Assembly: GCA_021782205.1 (NCBI GenBank)
Contig: JAJXVH010000018.1
Coordinates: 1-36,938 of the forward strand
Direction of reading: 5' to 3'
Source of the DNA: a bacterium
GTDB lineage: Bacteria; Elusimicrobiota; Elusimicrobia; UBA1565; UBA9628
Length of the DNA stretch: 36,938 bases
The position numbers were made by a program, and so were the translations under genes. Under the pieces are notes generated by a model that worked only from the letters and a program-made list of their open reading frames with translations, did not search any database and had not been told where the DNA came from. Positions 21,340 through 35,159 of this stretch are shown here, one piece after another. The number at the start of each line of letters is the position of its first letter. Within the stretch, counting starts at the first letter, position 1.

Positions 21340-23598
21340 ATGCGCGTCGCGTTCCTACGTGATGGTGCCGATCGTTGGCCGGCGCCGGGCGGCCCTCCCG
21401 AGGGCTGGGACGTGGCCGTTTTCTCCGGGGCCGACGAACTGATCGCGGCCCTTCTGGAGCGCGATTTCGACGCGGTCCTTGTCGCCCTGCCGGCGGACGC
21501 GGACCGGCTGACCTATATTCTCTCCCGCGCGCGCGTGGCCGCGCCCGACCTGCCCGTCGTGGTGGCGGCGCCGGCGCGGCGCGAGGCGGAAGCGGAGGCG
21601 GGAGCGGCCGCGGGGGCCGCGGACTACTGGCTCGACGCGATGGGTCCGCGACGCCTGCGTTTCGCTCTGGAGCGGGAAGCGCATCGCCGCCGCGGCGGCG
21701 CGCTGCGGCGCGCGCGCGACGAGGCGTTCGACCGGGTCGAGGACGCGGTGGCCGTGGCCGACGACGAGCATCGGATCGTCTCCTGGAACCGCGCGGCGGA
21801 GAGGATGAGCGGCCGGCGCTCCGAGGAGGTCGTCGGCTGCGCGGTGGCGGAGGTATTGGAGCCTTTGTGGCGGGACGCGGGAGCGCGCCTGAAAGCCTGG
21901 CGGGCCGTGGCCGCGCGCGGCGTCTGGCTCGGCGAGGCGCAGTTGACGCGGCGCGACGGCTCCTCAACTCGGATCTCCGCGGAGATCGCGGTCGCGCGAG
22001 ACGGGCGCGGGCGCCGCTCGGGACTCTTGTTCATCGCGCGGCCGACGGCGGCCCCAGCCGCGGCGACATCCGTCGGCGCACGCCAGTTCTTTGAGCGCAT
22101 TCTGAACGCGATCGCGGACCCAGTTTTCGTCAAGAACCGGGGCCACCGCATCCTTTTCGCCAACGACGCCTTCTGCGCTCTTCTCGCGCGCTCGCGCGAG
22201 GAGATACTGGCCAATGATGAGAACCAGTATCTTCCCTCGGAGCAGGCGGCGGTATTCCGACGACAAGACGACCTGGTGTTCGAAAGCGGGCGCGAGAACG
22301 TCCATCAAGAAACCGTGACCGACGCGCGCGGCCTGCCGCACGTCCTCATCACCAAGAAGACGGTCTGGCACGACACGGACGGACGTCCCTATCTGGTCGC
22401 CGTGATCCGTGAAATCACGGAGTTGGTGAAGGCTGTCGACGACCTTAAGCGCAGTCAGGAGACCCTGCGCCGGGCGCAAAATTTAGAGACGGTGGGACGC
22501 ATGGCCGGCGGTGTCGCCCACGACTTTAATAACGTGCTGACCGCGATCTCGGGCTGCGCGGCCGCGGCGCTGGAAGCGCTGCCGCATGACCATTCCGCCC
22601 GCGAGGAGGTTCTGGAAATCCGGCGCGCCGGCGAACGCGCGGCGGAACTCACCCGCCAATTGCTGTCGTTCGTGCGCCGCCCGAAAGGAGCTCCGCAGGT
22701 GCTCGACCTGCGTGAGGTCTACGGCGGCATGCGCAAGATGCTGGAGCGCCTATTGCCCGGGCAGACCTCGCTGGAGTTCCGCGCGCCGGATCAGCTCGGC
22801 TCGGTGAACGTCGATCCCGGTCGCGCGGAACAGATTTTGCTGAATTTGGTGGTCAATGCCGGTGACGCGATGCCGGGCGGCGGACGCGTGGTCGTCGAGC
22901 TTGAGGATGTCGCGGCGGGCCCGCCGGGCCTGCCGGGTCCCTGCGTGAGTCTGACCGTCGCCGATAGCGGCGTCGGCATGGACGAGTCGACGCGCGCGTC
23001 GATTTTTGAGCCGTTTTTCACGACGAAGCCGCAGGGTACAGGTTTGGGCCTGGCGACGGTGCGCGACGCCGTCGTCGACAGCGGCGGCGTCGTCGTCGTC
23101 GAGAGCGCGCCGGACCGAGGCTCCGTCTTTCGGGTATTTTGGCCGCTGTGCGCACGGAAAGCCGGCGCGCGGTCCGATAAACGTCCCGCGCGGGCCCAGT
23201 GCACCGTTCACCGCGCGCGCGTGCTCGTCGTCGAGGACGACGAGGCGGTGCGTCGTTTCGTCGTCCGCACGCTGGAGCATGCGGGCCACACGGTGCTGAG
23301 CGCCCCCGACGGACTTTCGGCGCTGCGCCTTTGCCGCGCGAGAAAAGCTTCCTTTGATGCCGCCGTGGTCGACGTGATCCTGCCACGCCTTCTCGGCCCA
23401 GAGTTTGTTGAGCGCCTGCGCGAGTACCAGCCGGAAGCGAGGATCCTGTACGTGTCGGGCCAGCTCTCGGATCCCGTCGTGCAGTCTTGCGTCGCGGCGG
23501 GCAGCGGCTCCTTCTTGCCCAAGCCGTTCGACGCGGCCCTGCTCGTCGAACGTGTGCGCGGTTTGCTGGCGGCCGGAGGGCCCGGCTCGGGGACTTGA
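21340..23598 (+). CDS. PAS-domain hybrid histidine kinase
   Basis: A 752-residue cytoplasmic sensor kinase without membrane segments. Domain order: an N-terminal receiver-like region without a recognisable phospho-Asp pocket (about 1-115), PAS1 (120-235), PAS2 (245-365), a short coiled coil, HisKA with the phospho-acceptor His394 in GGVAHDFNNVLT, the ATPase domain (N-box LLNLVVNAGDAM 500-511, DSGVGMD, FEPFFTTKPQGTGLGL), and a C-terminal receiver (627-750) with VEDDE and the acceptor Asp678. The HDFNN form is typical of large PAS hybrid kinases. No DNA-binding output domain, so it probably passes phosphate to a separate regulator. It is followed by a hairpin and then by the Ehr operon on the same strand; any functional link is a guess. 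Confidence 0.92.
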   Translation: MRVAFLRDGADRWPAPGGPPEGWDVAVFSGADELIAALLERDFDAVLVALPADADRLTYILSRARVAAPDLPVVVAAPARREAEAEAGAAAGAADYWLDAMGPRRLRFALEREAHRRRGGALRRARDEAFDRVEDAVAVADDEHRIVSWNRAAERMSGRRSEEVVGCAVAEVLEPLWRDAGARLKAWRAVAARGVWLGEAQLTRRDGSSTRISAEIAVARDGRGRRSGLLFIARPTAAPAAATSVGARQFFERILNAIADPVFVKNRGHRILFANDAFCALLARSREEILANDENQYLPSEQAAVFRRQDDLVFESGRENVHQETVTDARGLPHVLITKKTVWHDTDGRPYLVAVIREITELVKAVDDLKRSQETLRRAQNLETVGRMAGGVAHDFNNVLTAISGCAAAALEALPHDHSAREEVLEIRRAGERAAELTRQLLSFVRRPKGAPQVLDLREVYGGMRKMLERLLPGQTSLEFRAPDQLGSVNVDPGRAEQILLNLVVNAGDAMPGGGRVVVELEDVAAGPPGLPGPCVSLTVADSGVGMDESTRASIFEPFFTTKPQGTGLGLATVRDAVVDSGGVVVVESAPDRGSVFRVFWPLCARKAGARSDKRPARAQCTVHRARVLVVEDDEAVRRFVVRTLEHAGHTVLSAPDGLSALRLCRARKASFDAAVVDVILPRLLGPEFVERLREYQPEARILYVSGQLSDPVVQSCVAAGSGSFLPKPFDAALLVERVRGLLAAGGPGSGT

Positions 23599-23620
23599 GC
23601 GGGCCGCCGCAGTTCGGAAA

Positions 23621-23638
23621 GGGGCTTGAATGAGCCCC
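23621..23638 (+). terminator. Possible terminator hairpin after the histidine kinase
   Basis: GGGGCT and AGCCCC form a 6-bp stem around the loop TGAATG, 22 nt after the kinase stop. It is not followed by a T-run, so it may only weakly separate the kinase from the downstream operon. Confidence 0.35.
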
Positions 23639-23652
23639 GTTCACGCAATATA

Positions 23653-23661
23653 TGATATAAT
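23653..23661 (+). promoter_or_regulatory. Extended -10 promoter of the Ehr operon
   Basis: TGATATAAT combines a perfect TATAAT (23656-23661) with the extended TGn element, in a 40-bp AT-rich island (about 23647-23685) that stands out in this GC-rich window. No good -35 at 16-18 bp. The start codon is 68 nt downstream, so unlike most units here this one has a real leader. Confidence 0.65.
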
Positions 23662-23682
23662 GAGAATATAGTAATTAATAAA

Positions 23683-23727
23683 ATGGACCTGACGGTTTCA
23701 AGGGGCGGATTGCCGGGGGAACGGTAG
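23683..23727 (+). other. Possible 14-codon upstream ORF in the Ehr leader
   Basis: An ATG at 23683 opens a 14-residue frame (MDLTVSRGGLPGER) that stops 2 nt before the ATG of the HTH-EIIA gene. It has no clear SD. If translated, its termination would place ribosomes at the operon start. It may also be chance. Confidence 0.25.
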
Positions 23728-23729
23728 CG

Positions 23730-24386
23730 ATGGAGTTGAGCGTGCAGGACGCCGCCCGTGCCTTCGACGTCCCGGAGTCGACGATTCTCTTGTGGGTTCA
23801 GAACGAGGGCCTGCCGACCTTCTGCATCAACGGCCGCTATCGCTTTAATCACGTGGACCTGCTCGAATGGTCGAGCCTCCATAAGCGCTCGATGGTGTCG
23901 GCGGCCGCCCGGGAGTCGGCGCGGGGAATTCAATTCGCGCGTTTGTCGCGGGCCTTGACCGCGGGCGGCGTTCATCGCGGAATTTCGGGCGCGGACGCCG
24001 CGTCGATTCTCGCGTCTGCGGCCGAGCGCCTGCCCCTTCCCAAGGCGGACCGCGCCCTCGCCGCCGAGGTTCTCGCCGAACGCGAGAAGCATGGCACGAC
24101 GGCGGTCGGCGACGGGATCGCGATCCCCCATCCCCGTAGCCCGCTGGTCTTTCCGATCGAGGCTCCGGTCGTCGCGCTTTGCTTTCTCGACAAGCCTGCG
24201 GATTTCGCCGCGGCGGACGGCAAGCCGGTGTTCGCTCTTTTTATTCTGTTGACGCCGACGGTGCGCGAGCACTTGGTGCTTCTGGCCGATTTGGCCGCGG
24301 CCCTGCATGATCCGCGGTTTCGCGCCGCCGTGGCCCGCCGCGCGCCGGCCGATGAGATTCTCGCGTTTATGACGGCGGCGTCGTGA
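23730..24386 (+). CDS. HTH (excisionase/MerR-type) - PTS EIIA fusion regulator
   Basis: A 218-residue two-domain protein. Residues 1-50 form a winged helix of the excisionase/MerR type (LSVQDAARAFDVPESTILLWVQNEG, then GRYRFNHVDLLEW). Residues about 75-215 are a mannitol/fructose-type EIIA domain with VGDGIAIPHPR, whose His134 is the phosphorylation site in this family, and a DLAAALHDPRF segment. No EIIB or EIIC is nearby, so it more likely senses PTS phosphorylation than transports sugar. As the first gene of the Ehr operon it is a candidate autoregulator (inference). GGGGGA lies about 9 nt upstream of the ATG. The stop overlaps the next gene as GTGA. Confidence 0.88.
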   Translation: MELSVQDAARAFDVPESTILLWVQNEGLPTFCINGRYRFNHVDLLEWSSLHKRSMVSAAARESARGIQFARLSRALTAGGVHRGISGADAASILASAAERLPLPKADRALAAEVLAEREKHGTTAVGDGIAIPHPRSPLVFPIEAPVVALCFLDKPADFAAADGKPVFALFILLTPTVREHLVLLADLAAALHDPRFRAAVARRAPADEILAFMTAAS

Positions 24387-26359
24387 CGTTGATGCTCGTC
24401 TGCGTTTCGTGGCTGACGCTCGGAGCTTTTCTTTCGCTTCTTCTCCGCGATCATCCGCGCGCGTCGAGAGCGGCGGCTCTGATTTGTTTGGCGGCGGGCT
24501 GCTTGACCGGGTTGGTTCCGGCCCTGCGCGTCTTGTCCGGAGCCGAGGTGGCGCCGATTCATCTTCCGTGGTCCGTGCCGATGGGCGAGATTTCGCTGGC
24601 GCTCGATCCTTTGTCCGCTTTTTTTCTTCTGCCGATTTTCTTGGTCGGCCTGGCCGCCGGCGTCTACGGAGAAGGCTACCTCGTGGCGTCGCGCGGCCAT
24701 CTGCCGACGGCGGCCGTACGCTTCTTTTATTTTCTGCTGACCGCCTCGATGTCCGTGGTCGTCTGCGCGCGCAACGCCGTGCTCTTCCTCGCCGCCTGGG
24801 AGGTCATGGCGCTGGCCGCGTTTTTCCTGGTCTGCGCGGAAGACCGCAGACCGGAGGTGCGCCGAGCCGGTCTGATCTACATCGTGTGCACGCATACGGG
24901 GATCTTGTGCCTCTTCGTCCTCTTCGCCGTCTTGGGGACGCGCGGCGGCTCGATGGAATTTTCGGCCATGAGCGCCGCGATGCCCGGCCCGGGACCGGCC
25001 CTCACGGGCCTGTTCGCGTTGGCGCTGGTCGGTTTCGGTCTGAAAATCGGCTTTGCACCGTTTCATTTCTGGCTTCCGGAAGCGCATCCGGTGGCTCCGA
25101 GCCACGCGTCGGCCGTGTTGTCCGCGGTGGTCCTGAAGATGGGCGTTTACGGTTTGCTGAGATTTATCTCCTTCTGTCCGGTCGTGCCCGAAAGCTGGGG
25201 AGTCGTTTTGTTGGCTCTGGGGGCGGCGTCCGCCGTCCTCGGCGTGCTTTTCGCTTTGGCGCAGCGCGATTTGAAAAGACTGCTGGCTTATTCCAGCATC
25301 GAAAACGTCGGCATCATCACGATGGGGGTAGGCCTGGGTTGCCTGGGTCTGTCCCACGGCCGGCCCTTGATCGCGGCCGTCGGTTTCGCGGCGGCGCTGC
25401 TGCACGTTCTCAATCACAGTTTGTTCAAGTCTCTCCTGTTCCTTGTGGCCGGAGCTTTCGCGCAATCGCTGGGCGGCCGAGAGATCGAAGGCGCGGGCGG
25501 CCTGCTGCGGCGCATGCCGCGCACTTCTCTGCTCATGTGGGTCGCCGCGGCGGCGGCGTGCGGACTTCCGCCCTTCAACGGCTTCATCGGCGAATGGCTG
25601 CTCTACCGAGGCTTGCTGGGTGGGGAACTCGTCGAGGGCGCGCGCTACGCTGTTTTCGCGGCGGCGGCTTTGGCTCTGGCCGGAGGATTGGCCGCCGCCT
25701 GCTTCACGATGGCGTGCGGCGCCATGACCTTGGGGGAACCTCGCGGCCGGGCCGCCGGGGAGTCGCGGGACCCGGGGGGGCTGATGGTCTGGCCCATGGC
25801 GCTCTTGGGCGCGGCGTGCCTTGCCGTTGGAATCTTCCCCGTTCCCGCCGCGCTCGCCGCCGTTCGCGGCGCGGCGGTCCTTGGTCGTCTGGCGCCGGGC
25901 GCGGACCTTTCCTCCGTCGACGGAATGCTGGCTCCTCTCGCGGTCGTCGGCGCGCTCGGCGCCTGCGTGCTGGGGCTGGCCGGTCTCTTCTGGGCGCTGC
26001 GCGGCTTCTGGCTTCGCGATCGGAGCGTCGAAACTCAGCCGACCTGGGGCTGCGCTTTCAGCCGACCGTCTCCTGCGATGCAGTACACGGCGTCGTCCTT
26101 CGCGCAGCCCCTCGTGCGGGTGTTCCAGGGGCTGCTGCGGACACAGGTTGAAGCGCATCCGCCGTCGGGCTACTGGCCGGCGAGCGCGGATTTTCTCAGC
26201 CGCGCGCCGGACCCGGTTCTGGACCGGGCCTTGGCGCCCGCTTCCGTCGTGATGGAAACAGGGCTCTCCTTCATTCGTCGCCTGCAGCACGGCCGTCTGC
26301 AGTATTACCTGCTCTACGTGCTGGTGTTTCTTGTGCTCGTGCTGGTGTGGAAGCTATGA
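24383..26359 (+). CDS. Antiporter-like membrane subunit of Ehr complex (HyfB/NuoL-like)
   Basis: A 658-residue proton-pumping-type membrane protein with about 15-16 hydrophobic helices. Channel residues of the Mrp/NuoL family are present: Glu140 in LAAWEVMALAAFFL, Lys221 in GFGLKIGFAPFHFWLPEAHP, Lys252 in VLKMGVYGLLRF, and Lys298 in QRDLKRLLAYSSIENVG. HVLNHSLFKSLLFL and GLPPFNGFIGEWLLY also match HyfB and formate-hydrogenlyase HycC. The last 100 residues form an amphipathic stretch followed by a final helix. It should couple redox chemistry to ion translocation. It starts with GTG overlapping the HTH-EIIA stop, and its own stop overlaps the NuoH-like gene. Confidence 0.92.
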   Translation: MTLMLVCVSWLTLGAFLSLLLRDHPRASRAAALICLAAGCLTGLVPALRVLSGAEVAPIHLPWSVPMGEISLALDPLSAFFLLPIFLVGLAAGVYGEGYLVASRGHLPTAAVRFFYFLLTASMSVVVCARNAVLFLAAWEVMALAAFFLVCAEDRRPEVRRAGLIYIVCTHTGILCLFVLFAVLGTRGGSMEFSAMSAAMPGPGPALTGLFALALVGFGLKIGFAPFHFWLPEAHPVAPSHASAVLSAVVLKMGVYGLLRFISFCPVVPESWGVVLLALGAASAVLGVLFALAQRDLKRLLAYSSIENVGIITMGVGLGCLGLSHGRPLIAAVGFAAALLHVLNHSLFKSLLFLVAGAFAQSLGGREIEGAGGLLRRMPRTSLLMWVAAAAACGLPPFNGFIGEWLLYRGLLGGELVEGARYAVFAAAALALAGGLAAACFTMACGAMTLGEPRGRAAGESRDPGGLMVWPMALLGAACLAVGIFPVPAALAAVRGAAVLGRLAPGADLSSVDGMLAPLAVVGALGACVLGLAGLFWALRGFWLRDRSVETQPTWGCAFSRPSPAMQYTASSFAQPLVRVFQGLLRTQVEAHPPSGYWPASADFLSRAPDPVLDRALAPASVVMETGLSFIRRLQHGRLQYYLLYVLVFLVLVLVWKL

Positions 26360-27252
26360 ACGTCTTGGCCGCCTTCGAGAATGGGGCGGTCTTGCTTCTC
26401 TTGCCGCCGCTTCTGCCCGGCATCATCGGCAAGACCAAGGCTGTGTTCGGCGGGCGCAAAGGTCCGCCGTTTCTTCAGTCCTACCACGACATTCTGAAGC
26501 TCGTAGGCAAGGGCGCCGTTTACAGCCGCACGACGACCGCGATGTTTCGCCTGGGCCCGGTCCTGTCGCTGGCCGCGCTCATGGTCGCGGGCGCGCTGGT
26601 TCCCTTGGCGCATGATTCGCCGACTTCTTTTCCGGGAGATGCGCTTCTCTTCGCCTACCTCCTGGGGCTGGCTCGCTTCGCGACCATGGCCGCGGCGCTG
26701 GACGCGGGCTCCAGCTTCGAGGGCATGGGCGCCAGCCGTGAAGCGGCGTTCTCGAGCCTAGCGGAACCGGCGCTGGTTCTGGCGCTGGCCGCGTTGTTCC
26801 GCGCGACGGGAGGCTTGTCGCTCAACAGGATGTTCGGCGGCGCGCAGTGGAGCGTGTCCGGAGCCGGCCTGGTCCTGATCGGTGGAGGTCTCTTTCTCGT
26901 GCTCCTGTCGGAAAATTCCCGAATTCCCTTCGACGATCCGGCGACTCATCTGGAACTCACCATGATTCACGAGGTGATGACGCTGGACCATGGCGGCCCA
27001 GACCTGGCCTTCATCCTGTACGGCTCTTCGCTGAAGCTCCTACTCTGGTCGTCCTTGCTTGTCCGCTTACTGGTGCCCCTTCCGCCCGGGGCGCTCGGCT
27101 GGGCGGTTTGGACGGGCGGCGTCGCCGCGCTCGCGGCGGCCGTCGGCGTCGTCGAGTCGTCGATGGCGCGCCTCAAAATGACGCGGGTGCCGCAGGTTCT
27201 GGTCCTCGCGGTATGCGCGGCGGCTTTCGCGGTGATGCTCGCCCTGAAATAG
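26356..27252 (+). CDS. NuoH/HyfC-like membrane subunit of Ehr complex
   Basis: A 298-residue membrane protein with about eight helices. GRKGPPFLQSYHDILKL (residues 33-49) and SENSRIPFDDPATHLELTMIHE (about 186-207) are the two loops shared by NuoH, HyfC and HycD. The acidic residues in the second loop take part in coupling in related complexes. It anchors the peripheral arm to the antiporter-like subunits. ATG at 26356 (ATGA overlap with the previous stop) is preferred over a GTG nine bases earlier. Confidence 0.92.
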   Translation: MNVLAAFENGAVLLLLPPLLPGIIGKTKAVFGGRKGPPFLQSYHDILKLVGKGAVYSRTTTAMFRLGPVLSLAALMVAGALVPLAHDSPTSFPGDALLFAYLLGLARFATMAAALDAGSSFEGMGASREAAFSSLAEPALVLALAALFRATGGLSLNRMFGGAQWSVSGAGLVLIGGGLFLVLLSENSRIPFDDPATHLELTMIHEVMTLDHGGPDLAFILYGSSLKLLLWSSLLVRLLVPLPPGALGWAVWTGGVAALAAAVGVVESSMARLKMTRVPQVLVLAVCAAAFAVMLALK

Positions 27253-27253
27253 A

Positions 27254-27898
27254 ATGGAACAAACCGCCCAATTTCTCCTCGTCGGAACGCTGTTCCTGAG
27301 CTTGGCGCTTCTCGGGACCGCGTCTTTGTCCGGCTGCGTGGGGCTCGTGGCTCTGCAGGGCTATCTCCTCGCCTTGCTTCCGCTTTTCATTCATCGGGAG
27401 GGATTGACGGCGCGCGCGCTGCTGATCGCGGCCGGCATGGCGGGCCTGAAGGGCTGGCTGGTCCCCAGGGTGCTGCTTCACGCCATTCGGGAAGTCCGCA
27501 TTCGCCGCGAGGTCGAGCCTCTTGTCGGCTATATCCCCTCGCTCTTGATCGGGGGCGCGATCACCGTCGTCGCGTTCGTCCTTGCGGGGAGGCTTCCGAT
27601 TCCGCCGGGGCTACGCTCGGGCCTGCTCGTCCCGGTGTCCTTGGCGACGATGATGATGGGTCTTTTGCTGACCGTGTCTCGACTCAAGGCGCTGACGCAG
27701 GTCCTCGGCTATCTGGTTTTCGAGAACGGCATATTCCTTTTCGGCTTGCTGGTGTCCCGCGACATGCCGTGGCTTCTGGAGATGGGCGTTCTCTTGGACG
27801 TGTTCGTGGCCGTGTTCGTCATGGGCATCGTGATCCAGCAGATCAGCCGCGAGTTCGATTCGATTCACACGGACCGCTTGACCCAATTAAAGGAATGA
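27254..27898 (+). CDS. HyfE-like membrane subunit of Ehr complex
   Basis: A 214-residue protein with about seven hydrophobic segments, matching hydrogenase-4 component E, whose C-terminal part corresponds to NuoK. YLVFENGIFLFGLLV (about 149-163) contains the conserved membrane Glu of NuoK-like subunits, and EMGVLLDVFVAVFVMGIVI near 175-193 is a typical HyfE block. It begins one nucleotide after the NuoH-like stop, and its stop lies in the ATGAGG stretch just before the next gene. Presence of HyfE, not only the minimal subunits, puts this complex close to the Hyf-type branch. Confidence 0.9.
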   Translation: MEQTAQFLLVGTLFLSLALLGTASLSGCVGLVALQGYLLALLPLFIHREGLTARALLIAAGMAGLKGWLVPRVLLHAIREVRIRREVEPLVGYIPSLLIGGAITVVAFVLAGRLPIPPGLRSGLLVPVSLATMMMGLLLTVSRLKALTQVLGYLVFENGIFLFGLLVSRDMPWLLEMGVLLDVFVAVFVMGIVIQQISREFDSIHTDRLTQLKE

Positions 27899-27900
27899 GG

Positions 27901-29337
27901 ATGGAGCTTTTGTGCGTGATGATCGTTCCGTTCCTGGCCGCGCTCGCCGCGCTGGCTTGGCGGGACAACAGGCGTCGTCCCCTGCTTCTGCCCGCGGCCG
28001 GGGCGATCCACGCGGCCTGCACCCTGCGGTTGCTGCGCGCGCCTTCCGCTCCGCTGCCCGACGCCTGGCTGTCCTTGGACGCGCTCGGTCTCCTCTTGTT
28101 GGCCCTTTCCAGCGTCCTCTTCCTGGGCTGTGCGATCTATGGAGTCGAGTATCTTCGGCGCCGTGAAGAGCGGGATAATCGCCTCTTCGTCGCCTGCTAT
28201 TTGTTCATGCTCGCGGCCGCGAGCGCCGTGGCGGCGAGCCGCCACTTAGGGCTCATGTGGATCGCGATGGAAGCCACGACGCTCTCCGTCGCACCCTTGA
28301 TTCATTTCAAGCGCAGCGATCGTTCTCTGGAGGCGACTTGGAAATATCTCATCATGGGCTCGGTCGGCATCGGCCTGGCGCTGCTCGGCACCTATTTTCT
28401 GGCGTTGGCCGCCTCCGGCTCCTCGGGCGGCGGCTATACCCTGCACCTCGACGATCTCCTGAGTCTTGGACCAAGGCTGTCGGTGCCGTGGCTTAAGGGA
28501 GCATTTATTTTCATGCTGGTCGGCTACGGATTGAAGATGGGCCTGGCCCCGCTGCATTCGTGGAAGCCGGACGCTTACGGCGAGGCCCCCGGCATGGCCG
28601 GCGCCGCGCTGGCCGGCGTGCTGACGGGCTGTTCGTTTCTCGGCCTGCTGCGCGTTTATCAAATCTGCGCGGCTGCGGGCCAGTTGGACTTCGCCAAGGA
28701 CCTCCTGGTGCTCATGGGCTTGTTGTCTTTGGCGACGGCGGCGGCGTTCATGGTCAGCCAAAAGGATTTCAAGCGGCTTCTGGCTTATTCCAGCGTCGAA
28801 CACATGGGCCTGCTGGCGCTCGGTTTGGGACTGGGAGGCGGCGGATTATTCGCCGCGCTCCTGCATTTCATCAACAACGGATTGGCCAAGGGAGTGCTGT
28901 TCCTGACGGCGGGAAACATTCACCGGGCGTTCGGAGACAAAACCTTGGGCCGAGTTCACGGCGCGCTGCGCCGCGTGCCCGTGTCGGCGACGCTCTTTTT
29001 GCTTGGCTTCATCGCGATCACGGGCTCTCCTCCGTTCGGCCTGTTCCTGAGTGAATTCCTGCTCCTCCAGGCGGCCGTGGCCGCCGGGCGCTGGGCGGTC
29101 GCGCTGGCCGTCGTCGGTTTTCTCGCCATGATCTTTTTTGGCATGGCGGGCACCGCGTTCTCCGTGGCGCAGGGCGATCCGCCCGATGAACCGGTGCGGC
29201 CCGGCCAAGGAGATTCGCTCCTCACGACCATGGTGCCGGGGGCGTTCGCCTTGGCGCTGCTGGTTTTGGGCCTTTACATCCCCGCCTGGTTGACGTCCCG
29301 TTTGACCGGTGCCGCGTCGCTCCTGGGGGCTCCGTGA
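27901..29337 (+). CDS. Second antiporter-like subunit of Ehr complex (HyfF/NuoM-like)
   Basis: A 478-residue membrane protein with about 14 helices. Family residues include Glu in MWIAMEATTLSVAPLIHF, Lys in VGYGLKMGLAPLHSWKPDAYGEAP, and SQKDFKRLLAYSSVEHMG with Lys/His, plus FINNGLAKGVLFLTAGNI. It is a paralog of the first antiporter-like subunit, giving two ion channels per complex. ATG at 27901 is chosen because AAAGGA lies about 7 nt upstream; ATG at 27895, overlapping the preceding stop, is an alternative two residues longer. The GTGA at its end starts the large catalytic-type subunit. Confidence 0.92.
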   Translation: MELLCVMIVPFLAALAALAWRDNRRRPLLLPAAGAIHAACTLRLLRAPSAPLPDAWLSLDALGLLLLALSSVLFLGCAIYGVEYLRRREERDNRLFVACYLFMLAAASAVAASRHLGLMWIAMEATTLSVAPLIHFKRSDRSLEATWKYLIMGSVGIGLALLGTYFLALAASGSSGGGYTLHLDDLLSLGPRLSVPWLKGAFIFMLVGYGLKMGLAPLHSWKPDAYGEAPGMAGAALAGVLTGCSFLGLLRVYQICAAAGQLDFAKDLLVLMGLLSLATAAAFMVSQKDFKRLLAYSSVEHMGLLALGLGLGGGGLFAALLHFINNGLAKGVLFLTAGNIHRAFGDKTLGRVHGALRRVPVSATLFLLGFIAITGSPPFGLFLSEFLLLQAAVAAGRWAVALAVVGFLAMIFFGMAGTAFSVAQGDPPDEPVRPGQGDSLLTTMVPGAFALALLVLGLYIPAWLTSRLTGAASLLGAP

Positions 29338-30803
29338 GCCCGACCTCGCGCTTGCGCGCGCTGCGCAGTCCCGGGGCCGTGGAGCTGGCGTCGATTCCCA
29401 TTGTCCCGATCGACGAGTTCCGCGCGAGCGTTTTGCGGGCGGCGAAGGCCGGGCTGCGCCTATGCGCGCTGTTTTCTCGGGCCGCCGAGGGCGGCACGGG
29501 GTTATGCGCGGTTCTGGCCGACGACGCGCGCGGGCTCCTCTATGTCGTTTTTTCCGAACCGGCGAAAACCTGCCGCTCTCTCGCCTGTGAACTGCCCTCG
29601 GCGCATCTCTTCGAGCGGGAGATCGCCGAGTCGTCCGACGTCGAGGTCGAGGGGCACCCTTGGCTTAAGCCCGTGCGCAAAGGCTTTCCCGACTCCGTCG
29701 CATTTTTCCGCGAGAGCGGAGCGGAAATTCACGAGGTCGCCGTGGGGCCCATCCACGCGGGGATCATCGAGCCGGGGCATTTCCGCTTTCAATGTCATGG
29801 GGAGACGGTGCATCATCTGGAGATCCAGCTGGGCTATCAGCACCGGGGAGTCGAGGCCTTGCTCGCGGGAGGCCCGGACCGCCGCTCGGCATTCATCGCC
29901 GAGTCGATTTCGGGCGATACGGCGATAGGCCATGCCACGGCCTATTGCGCGAACCTGGAGGCGCTCGCCGGCGTCCGCGGCGGCCTGCGCGGCGAGGCCT
30001 TGCGCGCGGCGGCGCTGGAGCTTGAACGCCTTGCCAATCATATCGGCGACCTGGGCGCCCTCTCCAACGACGTCGGCTTTCTTCCCGTCGCGGCCTATTT
30101 CGGCCGCTTGCGCGGAGAATTCCTGAACATGCTGGCGGCGTTGTCCGGCAATCGCTTCGGCCGGGGGCTGGTTCGTCCCGGCGGCGCCGCATTCGACCTG
30201 ACGGCCGGCATGGCCGCGGATTTTTCGAAGCGGCTGGCTCAAGCGCGGACGGACTTGAACGCGGTCAGCGGTCTGCTGTTCGATTCAGCGTCGGTCATCG
30301 GGCGCTTCGATGAAACGGGAGCGGTGAGCCTGACGACCGCCCGGGATCTCGGGCTGGTGGGCCTGGCGGCGCGAGCCAGCGGCCTGGACCTGGACGTGAG
30401 GCGCGATCACCCCCACGGCCTCTACCGGTTCCGCCATATTCCGGCGGTGAAAATGGAGTCGGGCGACGTTTACGCACGGGCCATGCTCCGCCACCTGGAG
30501 TCTCTGCGCTCGCTCGAATTCCTGGAGGAACTCGTCGCGGACCTTCCCCGCGGAGCCGCGCGCGGGGCCTATCCCGCGCCGCGTCCCGGCCTCCTCGCGG
30601 TTTGCCTTGTCGAAGGGTGGCGCGGAGAGATATGTCACGTCGCGGAAACGGACGGCGAAGGCCGCTTCCGCGGCTACCGGATCGTCGATCCGTCGTTCCA
30701 TAACTGGGCGGCCGTCGCCATGGCCATGCGCGGCGGAGAAATTTCCGACTTTCCGTTGTGCAACAAGAGCTTCAACCTGTCCTATGCGGGTCATGACTTG
30801 TAA
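29334..30803 (+). CDS. NuoCD/HyfG-like large subunit of Ehr complex, lacking NiFe ligands
   Basis: A 489-residue fusion of an N-terminal NuoC-like part (about 1-125) with a NuoD/hydrogenase-large-subunit part. VGPIHAGIIEPGHFRF (137-152), LGYQHRGVE and LELERLANHIGDLGAL (about 228-243) confirm the family. In group 4 hydrogenases the NiFe ion is held by CGxC near the N-terminus and by CxxC near the C-terminus. Here the first site reads SGDT (Ser193-Thr196), within AESISGDTAIGHATAYC. The second reads SYAG (483-486), within NKSFNLSYAGHDL. All four Cys are absent, so it cannot hold a normal NiFe centre and should not make H2. The C-terminus also lacks the usual peptide removed by a maturation protease. 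The start is GTG, overlapping the previous stop. Confidence 0.92.
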   Translation: MSPTSRLRALRSPGAVELASIPIVPIDEFRASVLRAAKAGLRLCALFSRAAEGGTGLCAVLADDARGLLYVVFSEPAKTCRSLACELPSAHLFEREIAESSDVEVEGHPWLKPVRKGFPDSVAFFRESGAEIHEVAVGPIHAGIIEPGHFRFQCHGETVHHLEIQLGYQHRGVEALLAGGPDRRSAFIAESISGDTAIGHATAYCANLEALAGVRGGLRGEALRAAALELERLANHIGDLGALSNDVGFLPVAAYFGRLRGEFLNMLAALSGNRFGRGLVRPGGAAFDLTAGMAADFSKRLAQARTDLNAVSGLLFDSASVIGRFDETGAVSLTTARDLGLVGLAARASGLDLDVRRDHPHGLYRFRHIPAVKMESGDVYARAMLRHLESLRSLEFLEELVADLPRGAARGAYPAPRPGLLAVCLVEGWRGEICHVAETDGEGRFRGYRIVDPSFHNWAAVAMAMRGGEISDFPLCNKSFNLSYAGHDL

Positions 30804-30825: not shown

Positions 30826-31617
30826 ATGTGGAAAATTCTGAAGACGCGCCTCCAGCAAGGCTATCGCACATCGGACTATCCCAAGGGACCCAGCGGCCTG
30901 CCGGAGCGGTTTCGGGGGCGTCCCGCCGTGTCGTCCCAACCGTGCGCGGAGGGTTGTTCGGCCTGCGCGGAGTCCTGCCCGACCCGGGCGATCCAAATCT
31001 CCGCTGACCGGCGGGTCCGGCTGGATCTGGGCAAGTGTCTCTTCTGCACCGAATGCGTCTCGGCCTGCCCGGAGGGGATTGTCGCCTATTCGATGGACCA
31101 CCGATTGGCGGCGCGCCAGCGTGAGGACCTGGTCTTGTCGGGCGAGGAAGCGCGCCTGGCTCAGGCTCTCGACGAGAAAGCCCGCAAGCTTTTCGGCCGT
31201 TCGCTGAAGCTTCGGCAAGTTTGCGCGGGCTCCTGCAACGGCTGCGAGGCGGAACTGACGGTCTTGAACAACGTCGTTTTCGACCTGAACCGGTTCGGCA
31301 TACAGTTCGTCGCGTCGCCCCGGCACGCGGACGGTCTCGTCGTCACCGGACCCGTGACCGCGCACATGCGTGCGGCGCTGCGCGCGGCCTACGACGCGAT
31401 CCCCGAGCCGAAACTCGTCATCGCCGTCGGCGCCTGCGCGATCAGCGGAGGACTTTTCGCCGGAAGCCCGCAGGCGCACGACGGAGCGGATTCGACGGTG
31501 CCCGTCGATCTTTATATTCCGGGCTGTCCTCCTCATCCGTTGACGATTCTCGACGGGCTGCTGCGGCTTCTCGGTCGCATCGGTTCGGAAAAGGACTGCA
31601 AGAATGTTCCATCATAA
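30826..31617 (+). CDS. Fused ferredoxin and NuoB/HyfI-like small subunit of Ehr complex
   Basis: A 263-residue iron-sulfur protein joining two subunits that are separate in Hyf and Nuo (HyfH and HyfI). Residues 30-95 form a 2[4Fe-4S] ferredoxin. Cluster one uses Cys40, 44, 47 and 51 with an unusual x3 first spacing; cluster two uses Cys71, 74, 77 and 81 in the classical pattern. Residues 125-250 form the NuoB-like domain with Cys137, Cys140, Cys204 and Cys234, a complete proximal-cluster set. Electrons could thus flow from ferredoxin to the large subunit, although the NiFe site there is missing. Its 3' end overlaps the DUF1275 gene by 14 nt. Confidence 0.92.
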   Translation: MWKILKTRLQQGYRTSDYPKGPSGLPERFRGRPAVSSQPCAEGCSACAESCPTRAIQISADRRVRLDLGKCLFCTECVSACPEGIVAYSMDHRLAARQREDLVLSGEEARLAQALDEKARKLFGRSLKLRQVCAGSCNGCEAELTVLNNVVFDLNRFGIQFVASPRHADGLVVTGPVTAHMRAALRAAYDAIPEPKLVIAVGACAISGGLFAGSPQAHDGADSTVPVDLYIPGCPPHPLTILDGLLRLLGRIGSEKDCKNVPS

Positions 31618-32362
31618 AATCGACGACAAAGTCGGCATCAAGACGTATTTCGACTGGTTCCTGCTGGCTTTTCTCGGTGGGCAGGTCAACGCCGGCGGCT
31701 ACCTGTCCTGCCATCGCTTCGTTTCGCATGTGACGGGGTTTGCCACGCTTGCCGGTGTTTCGGTTGAGAAGCGGGACTGGGCGGAGGCCATCGGCACGGC
31801 GTCGATCCCGCTCTATTTCCTGATCGGAGCGGTGACTGCCGCCTACTTCACCGAGAAGCGCCTCGCGGCACGAGTCCACGGAGAAAGATTCGCGCCGGTG
31901 ATGACGATCGAGGCGGCGCTCCTGGGGGTGGCCGCGTTCGGGGGCAACCGAGGTTATTTCGGCATCTTCGGCGCGCCGCCGAACATCGGAGACAACTTCA
32001 TCCTGCTTGCATGCCTGTGCGGCGCCTGCGGACTGCAGAACGCCGCGATCACTTCGGCCACCGGTTCCACCGTGCGGACGACGCACATGACGGGCTTAAC
32101 CACCGACCTGGGTCTCGGCCTGGTCCGCGCGGAAGTCCACCCGATGTCCGACGCGCATCGCGCCAAGGAGCGCCTGGCGAACATGGCCCGCATCGGTACG
32201 CTTGCCTCGTTCATGACCGGATCTCTGTGCGCGGCGTTTTTTTTCGCGAAGTGGCATTATCAGGCCTTCTATATCCCAATGGCCATCGCCCTCTATGCCG
32301 CTTGGGTCGCGCGACGCAGCGAGGCCAAGCTGTTCGCGGAGCTATTGCCGAAGATCGGATGA
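31604..32362 (+). CDS. DUF1275 (YoaK-like) membrane protein
   Basis: A 252-residue inner-membrane protein with about six helices. Family marks are GGQVNAGGY (about residues 25-33), HVTGFATLAG, CGLQNAAITSATGSTVRTTHMTGLTTDLGLG (about 142-172) and a final pair of helices. Members are related to solute-carrier-like proteins but have no firm function. AAAAGGA is about 8 nt before the ATG, which lies inside the upstream Fe-S gene, so it is translated from the Ehr mRNA. I know of no required DUF1275 subunit in Hyf, Ech or Nuo; it could move a substrate or ion for the complex (speculative). Confidence 0.85.
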   Translation: MFHHKIDDKVGIKTYFDWFLLAFLGGQVNAGGYLSCHRFVSHVTGFATLAGVSVEKRDWAEAIGTASIPLYFLIGAVTAAYFTEKRLAARVHGERFAPVMTIEAALLGVAAFGGNRGYFGIFGAPPNIGDNFILLACLCGACGLQNAAITSATGSTVRTTHMTGLTTDLGLGLVRAEVHPMSDAHRAKERLANMARIGTLASFMTGSLCAAFFFAKWHYQAFYIPMAIALYAAWVARRSEAKLFAELLPKIG

Positions 32363-32393: not shown

Positions 32394-32756
32394 ATGACGA
32401 TCGTTCCGAACAATAACCACCAAATGGCCAGCGAAGAGCTCGTATTCAAAATCAAGGCCGATTTCCTCAAATCTTTGGCCCACCCGGCTCGCTTGGCCGT
32501 GATCGAATACCTGAAGACTCGGGAAGCGTCGGTGGGCCAGATCGTCTCGGCGCTCAAGCTGGAGCAGTCCGGCCTCTCCAAGCATCTGTCGCTTCTGCGT
32601 CAGGCGGGGATCGTGACGTCCCGCCATGAAGGCGTCACCGTCTATTACTCCATCCGCGACCGCGGGATATTCAAGGTTCTCCGCCCCATCGCGGAGATAC
32701 TGCGCAAGAAGCTCCGTGAAAGCCAAGCGGTGCTCGGCCATCTCGGCGAAACTTGA
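32394..32756 (+). CDS. ArsR-family transcriptional regulator
   Basis: A 120-residue winged-helix protein. KADFLKSLAHPARLAVIEYLKTRE, then VGQIVSALKLEQSGLSKHLSLLRQAGIVTSRHEG and VYYSIRD, form the standard ArsR DNA-binding domain. There is no metal-binding Cys pair of the ELCVCDL type in helix 3, so it is not a classical metal sensor. It lies 31 nt after the DUF1275 gene and is probably the last gene of the Ehr operon, giving the operon a regulator gene at each end. ATG at 32424 is an alternative ten codons later. It converges on tsaC with only 9 nt between stops. Confidence 0.88.
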   Translation: MTIVPNNNHQMASEELVFKIKADFLKSLAHPARLAVIEYLKTREASVGQIVSALKLEQSGLSKHLSLLRQAGIVTSRHEGVTVYYSIRDRGIFKVLRPIAEILRKKLRESQAVLGHLGET

Positions 32757-32765
32757 AGAGGCGGC

Positions 32766-33752
32766 TCAGCCCGCCGCGGCGCGCCGCAGCCGGTCCATGA
32801 CGGCGCGGCCCACGCCGCGGTCGGGGACGGACTCGACGAACAGCACGCGGACGCGCCGCTTCTCGGCGTCACGCAGGGCCGCGAAGAGGGCGCGCGCGTA
32901 GGCGTCCAGGCCGCCGGCCACGCGCCGGCGGAACGCGGGGGAGGGGCCGTTCCAGCGCGAACGGTGGAGAAGCCCAGATGCGCGGGCGGACAATCCGGCG
33001 ACGGCGCCGCGGCGGACCAGCGCTGGCGCGACGAGTTCGATGCGGCACGTCGGCGCATAGTGGCGGTGCCGCGTTCCGGGAGCGGCCGGTGCGCGCCGGC
33101 CGGGGGCCGCGATGCTTGCGCCCGCGGCGCGCGCGATGGCGGCGGGCGTCAGCGTGCCCGGGCGCAGAAGGACGGGCCGACGCCCGCGCGCGTCGATAAT
33201 CGCGGACTCCAGGCCGCGGCGGCAGGGGCCGCCGTCGAGGATCAGCGCCACTCGGCCGTCAAGATCGCGGAGCACGTGCGCCGCGGTGGTGGGGCTGGGA
33301 CGCCCCGAGAGATTGGCCGAAGGCGCGGCGATGGGTTCGCCCAGCGCGCGGATCAGCGCGCGCGCCGCGGCGTGGGCCGGACAGCGTACCGCGACCGTCT
33401 CCCGGCCGCCGGTCACGGCATCGGGCACGCGCGCGGATCTTTCCAGGACGAGGGTGAGCGGTCCGGGCCAAAAGGCGGCCATTAGACGGCGGGCGAGCGG
33501 CGTGGTGCGGCGCACCACGCGCGCGAGCATCTCCGGGCCGTCCACGTGGACGATCAGAGGATTGTCCGACGGCCGGCCTTTCGCGCGGTAGATCCGTCGC
33601 GCGGCCGCGGCGTCGAAGGCGCGCGCGCCCAGGCCGTAGACCGTCTCGGTTGGAAACGCGACCAGTCCGCCGCGGCGCAAGACCGTCGCGGCTTCTTGGA
33701 CGGCGGCGGGCGTCGCGCGGCGAACACGCGTGCGGCGCGGCCAGGGGAGCAT
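32766..33752 (-). CDS. tsaC: Threonylcarbamoyl-AMP synthase (Sua5/YwlC type)
   Basis: A 328-residue enzyme that makes threonylcarbamoyl-AMP from Thr, bicarbonate and ATP for the t6A37 modification of tRNA. The YrdC domain has LVAFPTETVYGLGARAFD (about 30-47), IYRAKGRPSDNPLIVHV with the KGRP signature, FWPGPLT and AAPSANLSGRPSPT. A PGTRHRHYAPT linker leads to a C-terminal Sua5 domain ending VGRAVMDRLRRAA. That makes it the long Sua5 form rather than the short TsaC form. The ATG lies 6 nt after a perfect TATAAT, which fixes the start and predicts a leaderless mRNA. Confidence 0.93.
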   Translation of the reverse strand: MLPWPRRTRVRRATPAAVQEAATVLRRGGLVAFPTETVYGLGARAFDAAAARRIYRAKGRPSDNPLIVHVDGPEMLARVVRRTTPLARRLMAAFWPGPLTLVLERSARVPDAVTGGRETVAVRCPAHAAARALIRALGEPIAAPSANLSGRPSPTTAAHVLRDLDGRVALILDGGPCRRGLESAIIDARGRRPVLLRPGTLTPAAIARAAGASIAAPGRRAPAAPGTRHRHYAPTCRIELVAPALVRRGAVAGLSARASGLLHRSRWNGPSPAFRRRVAGGLDAYARALFAALRDAEKRRVRVLFVESVPDRGVGRAVMDRLRRAAAG

Positions 33753-33758
33753 GCGTGT

Positions 33759-33764
33759 ATTATA
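33759..33764 (-). promoter_or_regulatory. -10 element, tsaC gene
   Basis: Perfect TATAAT on the - strand, exactly 6 nt before the ATG at 33752. No convincing -35. It is divergent from the TAAAAT of the neighbouring gene, within a 69-bp intergenic region. Confidence 0.65.
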
Positions 33765-33809
33765 TCGTTTCGATCCGGTCCGCGCTTTTTTGCCGCGCGC
33801 GATTAAGGC

Positions 33810-33815
33810 TAAAAT
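33810..33815 (+). promoter_or_regulatory. -10 element, gene at 33822
   Basis: TAAAAT exactly 6 nt before the ATG at 33822. A T-run (33786-33791) lies near the -35 position. Confidence 0.55.
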
Positions 33816-33821
33816 AAGGCC

Positions 33822-34226
33822 ATGAGCCCCGAACCCAAGGAATCCGCGAAGATGGACGCCGCCGACCTCTGGAAGGAAGAGGTCTTCACCGACCGCAAGG
33901 TCGGCACGATCCGCCGCTTGAGCCCGGTCAAGGCCGACGGCTCGCCAGACCCGCTGCGCAAGCTGATGTTCGTGGGCGAGGCGTCCTTGCTGACGCCCGC
34001 GGGCTCCCTGCCGCTGAGCTTTGAGATTCCCGCCGAGTCCCTGGAGAAGGCGGTCGCCGGTTACGCGGACGCGGTGCAGTTGGCGTTCCAGGATGCGATG
34101 GCGGAACTTGAGGAGATGCGCCGCCGCGCGGCGACGTCTTTGGTTCTGCCTCCGGCCGGAGCGGGCGGCCTTGCGGGCCTCGGTGGCGGCCTGCCACCGG
34201 GCGCGGGCAAGCTCAAGCTGCCGTAG
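33822..34226 (+). CDS. Conserved small cytoplasmic protein of unknown function
   Basis: A 134-residue soluble protein. It has a charged N-terminus, a core VFTDRKVGTIRRLSPVKADGSPD (about 21-43), FVGEASLLTPAGSLPLSFEIPA, then an amphipathic helix (EKAVAGYADAVQLAFQDAMAELEEMRRRAA), and a Gly/Pro-rich tail ending GAGKLKLP. I recognise the pattern as a conserved bacterial hypothetical protein but not a named family. No metal-binding or catalytic motif, no signal peptide. It is monocistronic, with a -10 placed 6 nt before the ATG. Confidence 0.75.
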   Translation: MSPEPKESAKMDAADLWKEEVFTDRKVGTIRRLSPVKADGSPDPLRKLMFVGEASLLTPAGSLPLSFEIPAESLEKAVAGYADAVQLAFQDAMAELEEMRRRAATSLVLPPAGAGGLAGLGGGLPPGAGKLKLP

Positions 34227-34252
34227 CGCAAAGCGGCCGCCCGTCCGCGGCC

Positions 34253-34280
34253 TTGAAAATTCGGACGGCCGGGCTACACT
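34253..34280 (+). promoter_or_regulatory. Sigma70-type promoter of the DUF922 gene
   Basis: TTGAAA (34253-34258), a 16-bp spacer and TACACT (34275-34280). The 6-nt rule seen elsewhere points to the ATG at 34287 as the true start, not the ATG at 34284, which would be only 3 nt from the hexamer. Confidence 0.7.
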
Positions 34281-34286
34281 GTCATG

Positions 34287-35159
34287 ATGCGAGCGGACGG
34301 AAGACGTTCTCGCGCCAAAGCGTCGGCCCTGGCCGCGTATTTTCTTTTCGCGGCCGCGGTCGCGTCGCACGCTCAAGACGAGGACTCGGCGCTGGCGCAT
34401 GATTGCGTCAACGAGATCGGTCTTTTCTGTCCCGGCGAGTCAGGCGCGGCGCTGTTCGACTGCCTGAGCGCGTTCCGCGGCAGCGCCACGGCGCGGTGCC
34501 GGGCGCATTTGAAGGACGTCGACGCCTCCGCGCCTGCGGCCAAGGTCTGGGCCTCGTCCGCGGCGTCCGTCGGCCCGCCGCCGCCCGCGCCGCGTCCGGT
34601 TGCTCCCGGCTTCGACTTCGTCGCGCGGGACGAGCCGCGCGTCGAACGGGTCGGGGGCGCGCGGCCTAAGGAATTGATCGCGCGCATGGCCGCCTCGGGT
34701 CTTGAGGAGTCGTGGGATCCGGGTGCCACGTTGAGCTTCACGTTCGCGAGCGCGATGAAGGCCGGCGGCTGCGCGGTCTCGGCGGCCCACGTCCAGGCGC
34801 TCACGCCGCGCGTCTCGGCGCTCTGGAAAGAAGCGCCGTCCGCTCCGGCCGCGCTCGCCGCGGATTGGGGCCGTTTCACGGAGGCTCTGCGCGATCATGA
34901 GGGCGGCCACAAGGCCCTCGCGGTCAAGGCGGGCCGGGAGTTCCTGAGCCGCTTGAAAGCGCTCGGCGCTCGGCGCACCTGCGCGGAACTGGACGCGGAC
35001 GCGCGCGGGCTCTTGGCGCGCGCGCGTTTGGACGCCCGGCGCGCGGACGCGGACTACGACGCGCGTACCGCCCGCGGCCGGACGCAGTGGGAAAAGCTTG
35101 CGCCGCGGGCTCCGGCAAACCCTGACGGCGGGAAGACGACTCACAATTTGTTAAAGTAA
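34287..35159 (+). CDS. Secreted DUF922 metalloprotease-like protein with Cys-rich repeat
   Basis: A 290-residue protein. Residues 1-30 are a signal peptide ending ASHAQ. Residues 36-78 contain Cys40, Cys48, Cys59 and Cys71 in the spacing of a GLG1-type cysteine-rich repeat (DCVNEIGLFCPG, then CRAHL). A Pro-rich linker follows. The C-terminal part resembles DUF922, a predicted zinc protease: DHEGGHKALAVKAG has an HExxH-like His204-Glu205-x2-His208, and Cys162 and Cys232 could form a disulfide. The exact protease function of the family is unproven. The end of the gene is 9 nt before the next ATG. Confidence 0.75.
   Translation: MRADGRRSRAKASALAAYFLFAAAVASHAQDEDSALAHDCVNEIGLFCPGESGAALFDCLSAFRGSATARCRAHLKDVDASAPAAKVWASSAASVGPPPPAPRPVAPGFDFVARDEPRVERVGGARPKELIARMAASGLEESWDPGATLSFTFASAMKAGGCAVSAAHVQALTPRVSALWKEAPSAPAALAADWGRFTEALRDHEGGHKALAVKAGREFLSRLKALGARRTCAELDADARGLLARARLDARRADADYDARTARGRTQWEKLAPRAPANPDGGKTTHNLLK

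Follow-up and report, generated by a model that had tools for sequence, protein, structure and literature searches.

An HTH–EIIA fusion protein at the head of Ehr operons as a candidate PTS-responsive regulator

Why would a PTS phosphoacceptor domain, joined to a DNA-binding domain, stand at the head of an operon for an ion-translocating redox complex? The question arises from a 36,938-nucleotide stretch of an Elusimicrobiota genome (contig JAJXVH010000018.1, here called the window), in which the first gene of an Ehr operon encodes such a protein. Ehr complexes are common in anaerobes. A preliminary description had read the gene as a fusion of a helix-turn-helix (HTH) domain to an EIIA domain with its phospho-histidine, residue 134, intact, and this reading holds: both Pfam domains score above their cut-offs, and H134 and a second active-site-type histidine, H181, are in place (Table 1). 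The ORF has an ATG start and a TGA stop. HTH_17 and PTS_EIIA_2, about 45 residues apart, are its only Pfam matches, with no PRD domain between them. An AlphaFold2 model (30-sequence; mean pLDDT 89.1) has two folded domains joined by a linker that is weakly predicted around residues 59–65. Within the HTH domain, helices are predicted at residues 5–12 and 16–26, followed by a beta hairpin (31–40) and another helix (41–50).

The nearest solved fold is that of EIIANtr/PtsN (PF00359; PDB 3urr, 2a0j, 1a6j, 4gqx), with Foldseek TM values, by target, of 0.63–0.80 and profile E values down to 1.6e-20; the fold, the phospho-histidine motif and the second active-site histidine are shared. Regulation of ion transport, through KdpD and YcgO, is an established role of PtsN, and the fusion likewise sits with ion-transport genes. 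Since the fusion scores far below the cut-off of the PtsN equivalog (TIGR01419, NCBIfam; 60.7 versus 138.7 bits), we regard it as EIIANtr-like rather than as PtsN, from which it also differs in its N-terminal HTH, in having PHxRxP where PtsN has PHGK/PHGR following the histidine, and in being dedicated to a single operon. With PRD regulators of the LicR and MtlR type, some of which have a C-terminal EIIA_2 domain, the fusion shares an expected dependence of its regulatory activity on PTS phosphorylation. In contrast to these, the fusion lacks both PRD and EIIB, is half their size or less, and has as its predicted target genes those of an ion-pumping redox complex rather than of a sugar permease.

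The genes that follow without a gap form an intact Ehr cluster, with Hyf-like membrane subunits, a small subunit and a large subunit that lacks the NiFe ligands: in EhrL the position of the L1 CxxC reads SGDT, and a single cysteine is left in the C-terminal motif. The same composition (HyfB/C/E/F-like subunits, a NuoB-like small subunit and a large subunit without NiFe ligands) is that of Ehr of G. sulfurreducens, GSU0739–0745 (PMC7894505, PMC6349859); the passages on Ehr consulted in these accounts do not mention an HTH–EIIA gene. In the window, the stop codon of the fusion is overlapped by 4 nt (GTGA) by the GTG start of the HyfB-like gene at 24383, as first described. As an alternative in-frame ATG at 24392 could be the start and would abolish the overlap, the tight coupling is certain and the figure of 4 nt is not. 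Among 80 relatives of the fusion, 42 have the stop codon in an ATGA, GTGA or TTGA context. The statement that no PTS permease lies nearby was borne out by a profile scan of most large window ORFs from 16.4 kb on, which recognized none. Upstream, a gene for a PAS-PAS histidine kinase with a C-terminal receiver (21340–23598) ends 131 bp before the fusion; genome G010 has a neighbor 73% identical to this protein. Past the downstream ArsR gene, a Sua5/threonylcarbamoyl-AMP synthase ORF on the reverse strand (32766–34400) has about 230 extra N-terminal residues, its start possibly being mis-set.

Table 1. Features of the window and of related loci (positions without a locus label are those of the window)
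Feature	Position	Strand	Basis or remark
HTH_17-EIIA_2 fusion protein, 218 aa, Ehr operon gene 1	23730..24386	+	ORF, Pfam
HTH_17 (BldC/excisionase-like) DNA-binding domain, residues 3-47	23736..23870	+	Pfam 30.5 bits, cut-off 27
PTS EIIA_2 domain, residues 93-215	24006..24374	+	Pfam 69.8 bits, cut-off 27
H134 codon CAT, predicted phospho-acceptor, within GDGIAIPHPRSP	24129..24131	+	sequence, alignment
H181 codon CAC, second active-site-type His	24270..24272	+	sequence, alignment
Promoter-like block TATATGATATAATGAGAATATAGTAATT, extended -10 look	23649..23676	+	conserved in G016, G012, G038; kept in G014
HyfB-like antiporter-type membrane subunit of Ehr, 658 aa, hydrogenase-4 subunit B family, GTG start	24383..26359	+	profile matches
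HyfC/NuoH-like membrane subunit	26347..27252	+	profile matches
HyfE-like membrane subunit	27254..27898	+	profile matches
HyfF-like antiporter-type subunit, start codon inferred	27895..29337	+	profile matches
EhrL large subunit	29334..30803	+	profile matches, sequence reading
EhrS, NuoB-like small subunit with a fused ferredoxin-type 2[4Fe-4S] domain	30826..31617	+	profile matches, sequence
DUF1275 protein; adjoins Ehr in G012 and G014 too	31604..32362	+	profile, neighborhood comparison
ArsR-family regulator lacking cysteines; shared by the Ehr loci of most Elusimicrobiota relatives	32394..32756	+	profile, neighborhood comparison
Degenerate-EIIA fusions, Ehr-linked	L178:5008-5772 and L231:7891-8628		direct-repeat operator over start codon
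ClC-type loci	L179-L185		genomes G122, G230, G207, G090, G154, G182, G118

The fusion is linked to Ehr almost without exception. A full-length homologue (38–73% identity) is present in 19 of 57 related genomes, and an Ehr cluster adjoins it in each of the 18 whose flanks are long enough to tell, the 19th lying at a contig edge. Conversely, 19 of the 21 related genomes with a strong EhrL carry the fusion, and the only reason why EhrL is missing from one fusion genome is a truncated contig. The fusion is not always first, since several family members have a second HyfB gene upstream of it. In a wider survey of one genome per species (84,980 species), we found at least 548 relatives and read the best 80, which span about 15 phyla: a HyfB-like Ehr gene comes next in all 79 loci that have downstream sequence. 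As this list is ranked by similarity and hence biased, we also took 148 genomes drawn evenly from the phylum of Geotalea. In these we found 21 full-length fusions, of which 14 neighbor Ehr genes and seven lie elsewhere. Twelve of the 14 immediately precede HyfB in the same orientation, one is followed by EhrL and one is convergent with HyfB. The reverse association is weaker: of the 25 genomes of the sample with EhrL, about nine have no fusion and two only a degenerate one, leaving 14 with an intact copy. Random scatter relative to Ehr, one of the two outcomes that would have spoken against the first description, is ruled out by these counts (18/18, 79/79 and 14/14) and by Fisher tests of the co-occurrence of fusion and EhrL (p = 4e-12 among the related genomes, and 3e-13). 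The association is thus far stronger than that description, made from the sequence alone, could show. A search for carriage of the fusion on plasmids found no match.

The other seven fusions of the 148-genome sample lie directly upstream of genes for ClC-type chloride channels/antiporters, and the ClC neighbors that were scanned carry CBS domains. The ClC-type fusions form one clade (SH-aLRT 96). Because this sister clade heads ClC genes, what the two contexts have in common is neither hydrogen nor sugar metabolism but ion transport, and the initial proposal of carbon or nitrogen as the signal finds no specific support.

Could the EIIA domain be phosphorylated in its host? Searched family by family, the window's own genome contains every PTS component that the first description had suggested looking for, together with HprK: a cluster near dnaA on another contig (G000:C21, L057:2424-8687) reads hprK-rapZ-EIIA-EIIB-EIIC-EIID-HPr-EI and is of the mannose-PTS type. 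A host without a PTS is thus ruled out for this genome. Across 70 fusion genomes, EI was recognized in 67 and HPr in 66; both escaped recognition in three (G020, which is 97% complete, G075 and G076). The own genome also encodes other EIIA_2 proteins, among them a CNNM-CBS-EIIA fusion (G000:C166, L060:8134-9798) in which EIIA is again joined to an ion transporter.

H134 and H181 are invariant in all 115 intact fusions aligned, 108 of Ehr type and seven of ClC type, as are R118, T124 and R136. In two degenerate Ehr-linked fusions, from G178 and G215, H134 is replaced by S or R and H181 by Q or E, and G178 nonetheless retains EI and HPr. As these two proteins keep both the Ehr linkage and the operator described below without the histidines, phosphorylation is dispensable in at least one lineage.

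When exact hexamer repeats were counted in the DNA upstream of the fusions, one stood out, TGTCCA-N4-TGTCCA, with a 10-bp period. The repeat is present, on either strand, in 13 of 80 upstream regions, compared with at most two in 100 shuffled sets and two in coding controls. When up to one mismatch was allowed, 24 of 28 sites in 1.2 Mb of locus DNA fell 31–97 bp upstream of the fusion start, and a position weight matrix (PWM) at ≥15 bits located 41 sites between −130 and 0 and six elsewhere. Three of these six head second fusion genes, one at L107 and two at L104; the L107 locus contains a pair of divergent fusion-Ehr operons, both with a TGTCCA site of their own, and at L104 two fusion genes lie in tandem. 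In a split-half train/test comparison, 39 of 80 upstream regions were positive at a background rate of 0.5%. Of the loci not used for training, four of 14 Ehr-type loci, the two degenerate fusions, and G037 and G042 from the window's order have a site; by PWM, none of the seven ClC-type upstream regions does. A generic Ehr promoter element is ruled out, as the repeat is absent from the readable Ehr promoters that lack a fusion.

In many relatives, then, a fusion-linked direct repeat of one helical turn lies over the core promoter: in one orientation it overlaps a TTGACA-type −35 element and the spacer, in the other the −10 element and +1, and in the degenerate fusions the start codon. Such placement favors autorepression. 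The pattern is rare, at one to a few copies in a genome (43 sites in 28 genomes); at least 15 of 30 inspected sites are fusion promoters, and the others are near the number expected by chance and have no Ehr gene. A wide regulon is ruled out by this rarity and by the presence of about half of the inspected sites at fusion promoters. BldC, a MerR-like winged HTH protein, binds head-to-tail to direct repeats, its protected tracts being one helical turn apart (PMC5859096), and the geometry of the repeat therefore fits an HTH_17 protein. The small HTH domains are alike, and the operators of the relatives are, as for BldC, one-turn direct repeats of at least two copies in either orientation. Unlike BldC, which consists of the winged HTH only and has a wide regulon, the fusion adds an EIIA sensor, and its site is rare and mainly at its own promoter.

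In the window's clade there is no recognizable TGTCCA operator. The window's upstream region scores 0.1 bits by PWM and contains no TGTCCA site with three or fewer mismatches near 23600–23730. Where operator-bearing proteins commonly have K, Y, Q and E, the window's HTH has S17, L20, R36 and D43. K17/Y20, considered as candidate specificity determinants, are associated with the operator (40/55 versus 9/53), an association that a phylogeny-controlled test with too few independent pairs did not separate from ancestry. The promoter-like block upstream of the window's fusion was considered as its operator, a candidacy weakened by retention of the block in G014, which has an Ehr operon without the fusion. 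Because it is kept there, the block is probably the Ehr promoter and perhaps a site for ArsR, which may act at this position.

These findings raise the possibility that, in the window's clade, the Ehr promoter is mainly under the control of ArsR or of the PAS-kinase/receiver protein, leaving the fusion a residual role. G014, in which the block persists and the fusion is absent, encodes the ArsR protein (89.9% identity); EI and HPr were not found in this genome, which is 72% complete. The lack of a TGTCCA site in the window's promoter and the arrangement in G010, where ArsR is the first gene behind the perfect palindrome ATGAATAGTTATTCAT (L035, upstream of ArsR), are in keeping with such control. 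In G034 (L144), ArsR stands directly before HyfB, in the place of the fusion. We nonetheless consider it rather unlikely that ArsR or the kinase has taken over, as the fusion still heads the operon in the window's clade and all of its key residues are kept.

The reading that we favor, with a probability of roughly 0.6, is that the fusion serves the Ehr operon at whose head it stands as a dedicated, local transcriptional (auto)regulator responsive to the PTS. HPr-P would phosphorylate the EIIANtr-type domain at H134, and phosphorylation would alter how the BldC-like HTH sits on direct repeats in the fusion's own promoter. The protein would probably be an autorepressor, rather than an activator, and the PEP/PTS state would thereby set the amount of the ion-translocating Ehr complex that is made. 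The window's protein may use a diverged version of the TGTCCA operator. The broader statement made at the outset, that phosphotransfer state controls, or is read by, the redox complex, can thus be narrowed toward transcriptional control, to which the operator in many relatives points.

Might the EIIA domain instead act on the complex itself? In its unphosphorylated form it could bind the antiporter-type subunits of Ehr (or ClC) and gate ion transport post-translationally, with the HTH secondary or serving as an anchor. The fusions occur only with ion-translocating systems, Ehr and ClC, and the CNNM-CBS-EIIA protein of the own genome is a further case of the kind. There is also precedent in that EIIANtr/PtsN binds KdpD (PMC9239096) and is reported to act directly on YcgO, a K+/H+ antiporter of E. 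coli, as an inhibitor (PMC11808508). However, the conserved promoter operator tracks the fusion and not Ehr, and the degenerate fusions lose the EIIA active site but keep the HTH and the operator, which makes gating quite improbable. That the fusion is a constitutive or ligand-dependent local repressor, in which EIIA is a body for dimerization or ligand binding and the physiological input is something other than phosphorylation, would accommodate G178 and G215, which keep the operator without H134 and H181, and the three hosts apparently lacking both EI and HPr, but we find it very doubtful, since both histidines are absolute in 115 other fusions from about 15 phyla, which would be unexpected without phosphorylation.

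PTS-controlled regulators, control of ion transport by PtsN and winged HTH proteins on direct repeats are each already known. Their combination, with near-obligate linkage to Ehr and an operator, was not found described in the literature searched: our search, which covered mainly literature outside the subscription journals, returned no description of the HTH_17/PTS_EIIA_2 architecture, of a link between Ehr and EIIA or of the operator. A dedicated regulator with known sensor chemistry and a defined operator offers a handle on when cells produce Ehr and on its function, one that would be workable in cultured Geotalea or Desulforhabdus. PTS control would also reach past sugar uptake and the K+ links of PtsN to a general theme of ion transport.

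We give even odds to the wider proposal that HTH_17-EIIA proteins make up a widespread and as yet undescribed family of transcription factors for ion-translocating systems, phosphorylated through the PTS, which comprises the Ehr (TGTCCA) clade and the ClC-operon clade and connects the PEP phosphorelay to ion-motive force in about 15 phyla. In several of the ClC-type loci, a conserved gene of about 280 aa without a Pfam match then follows.
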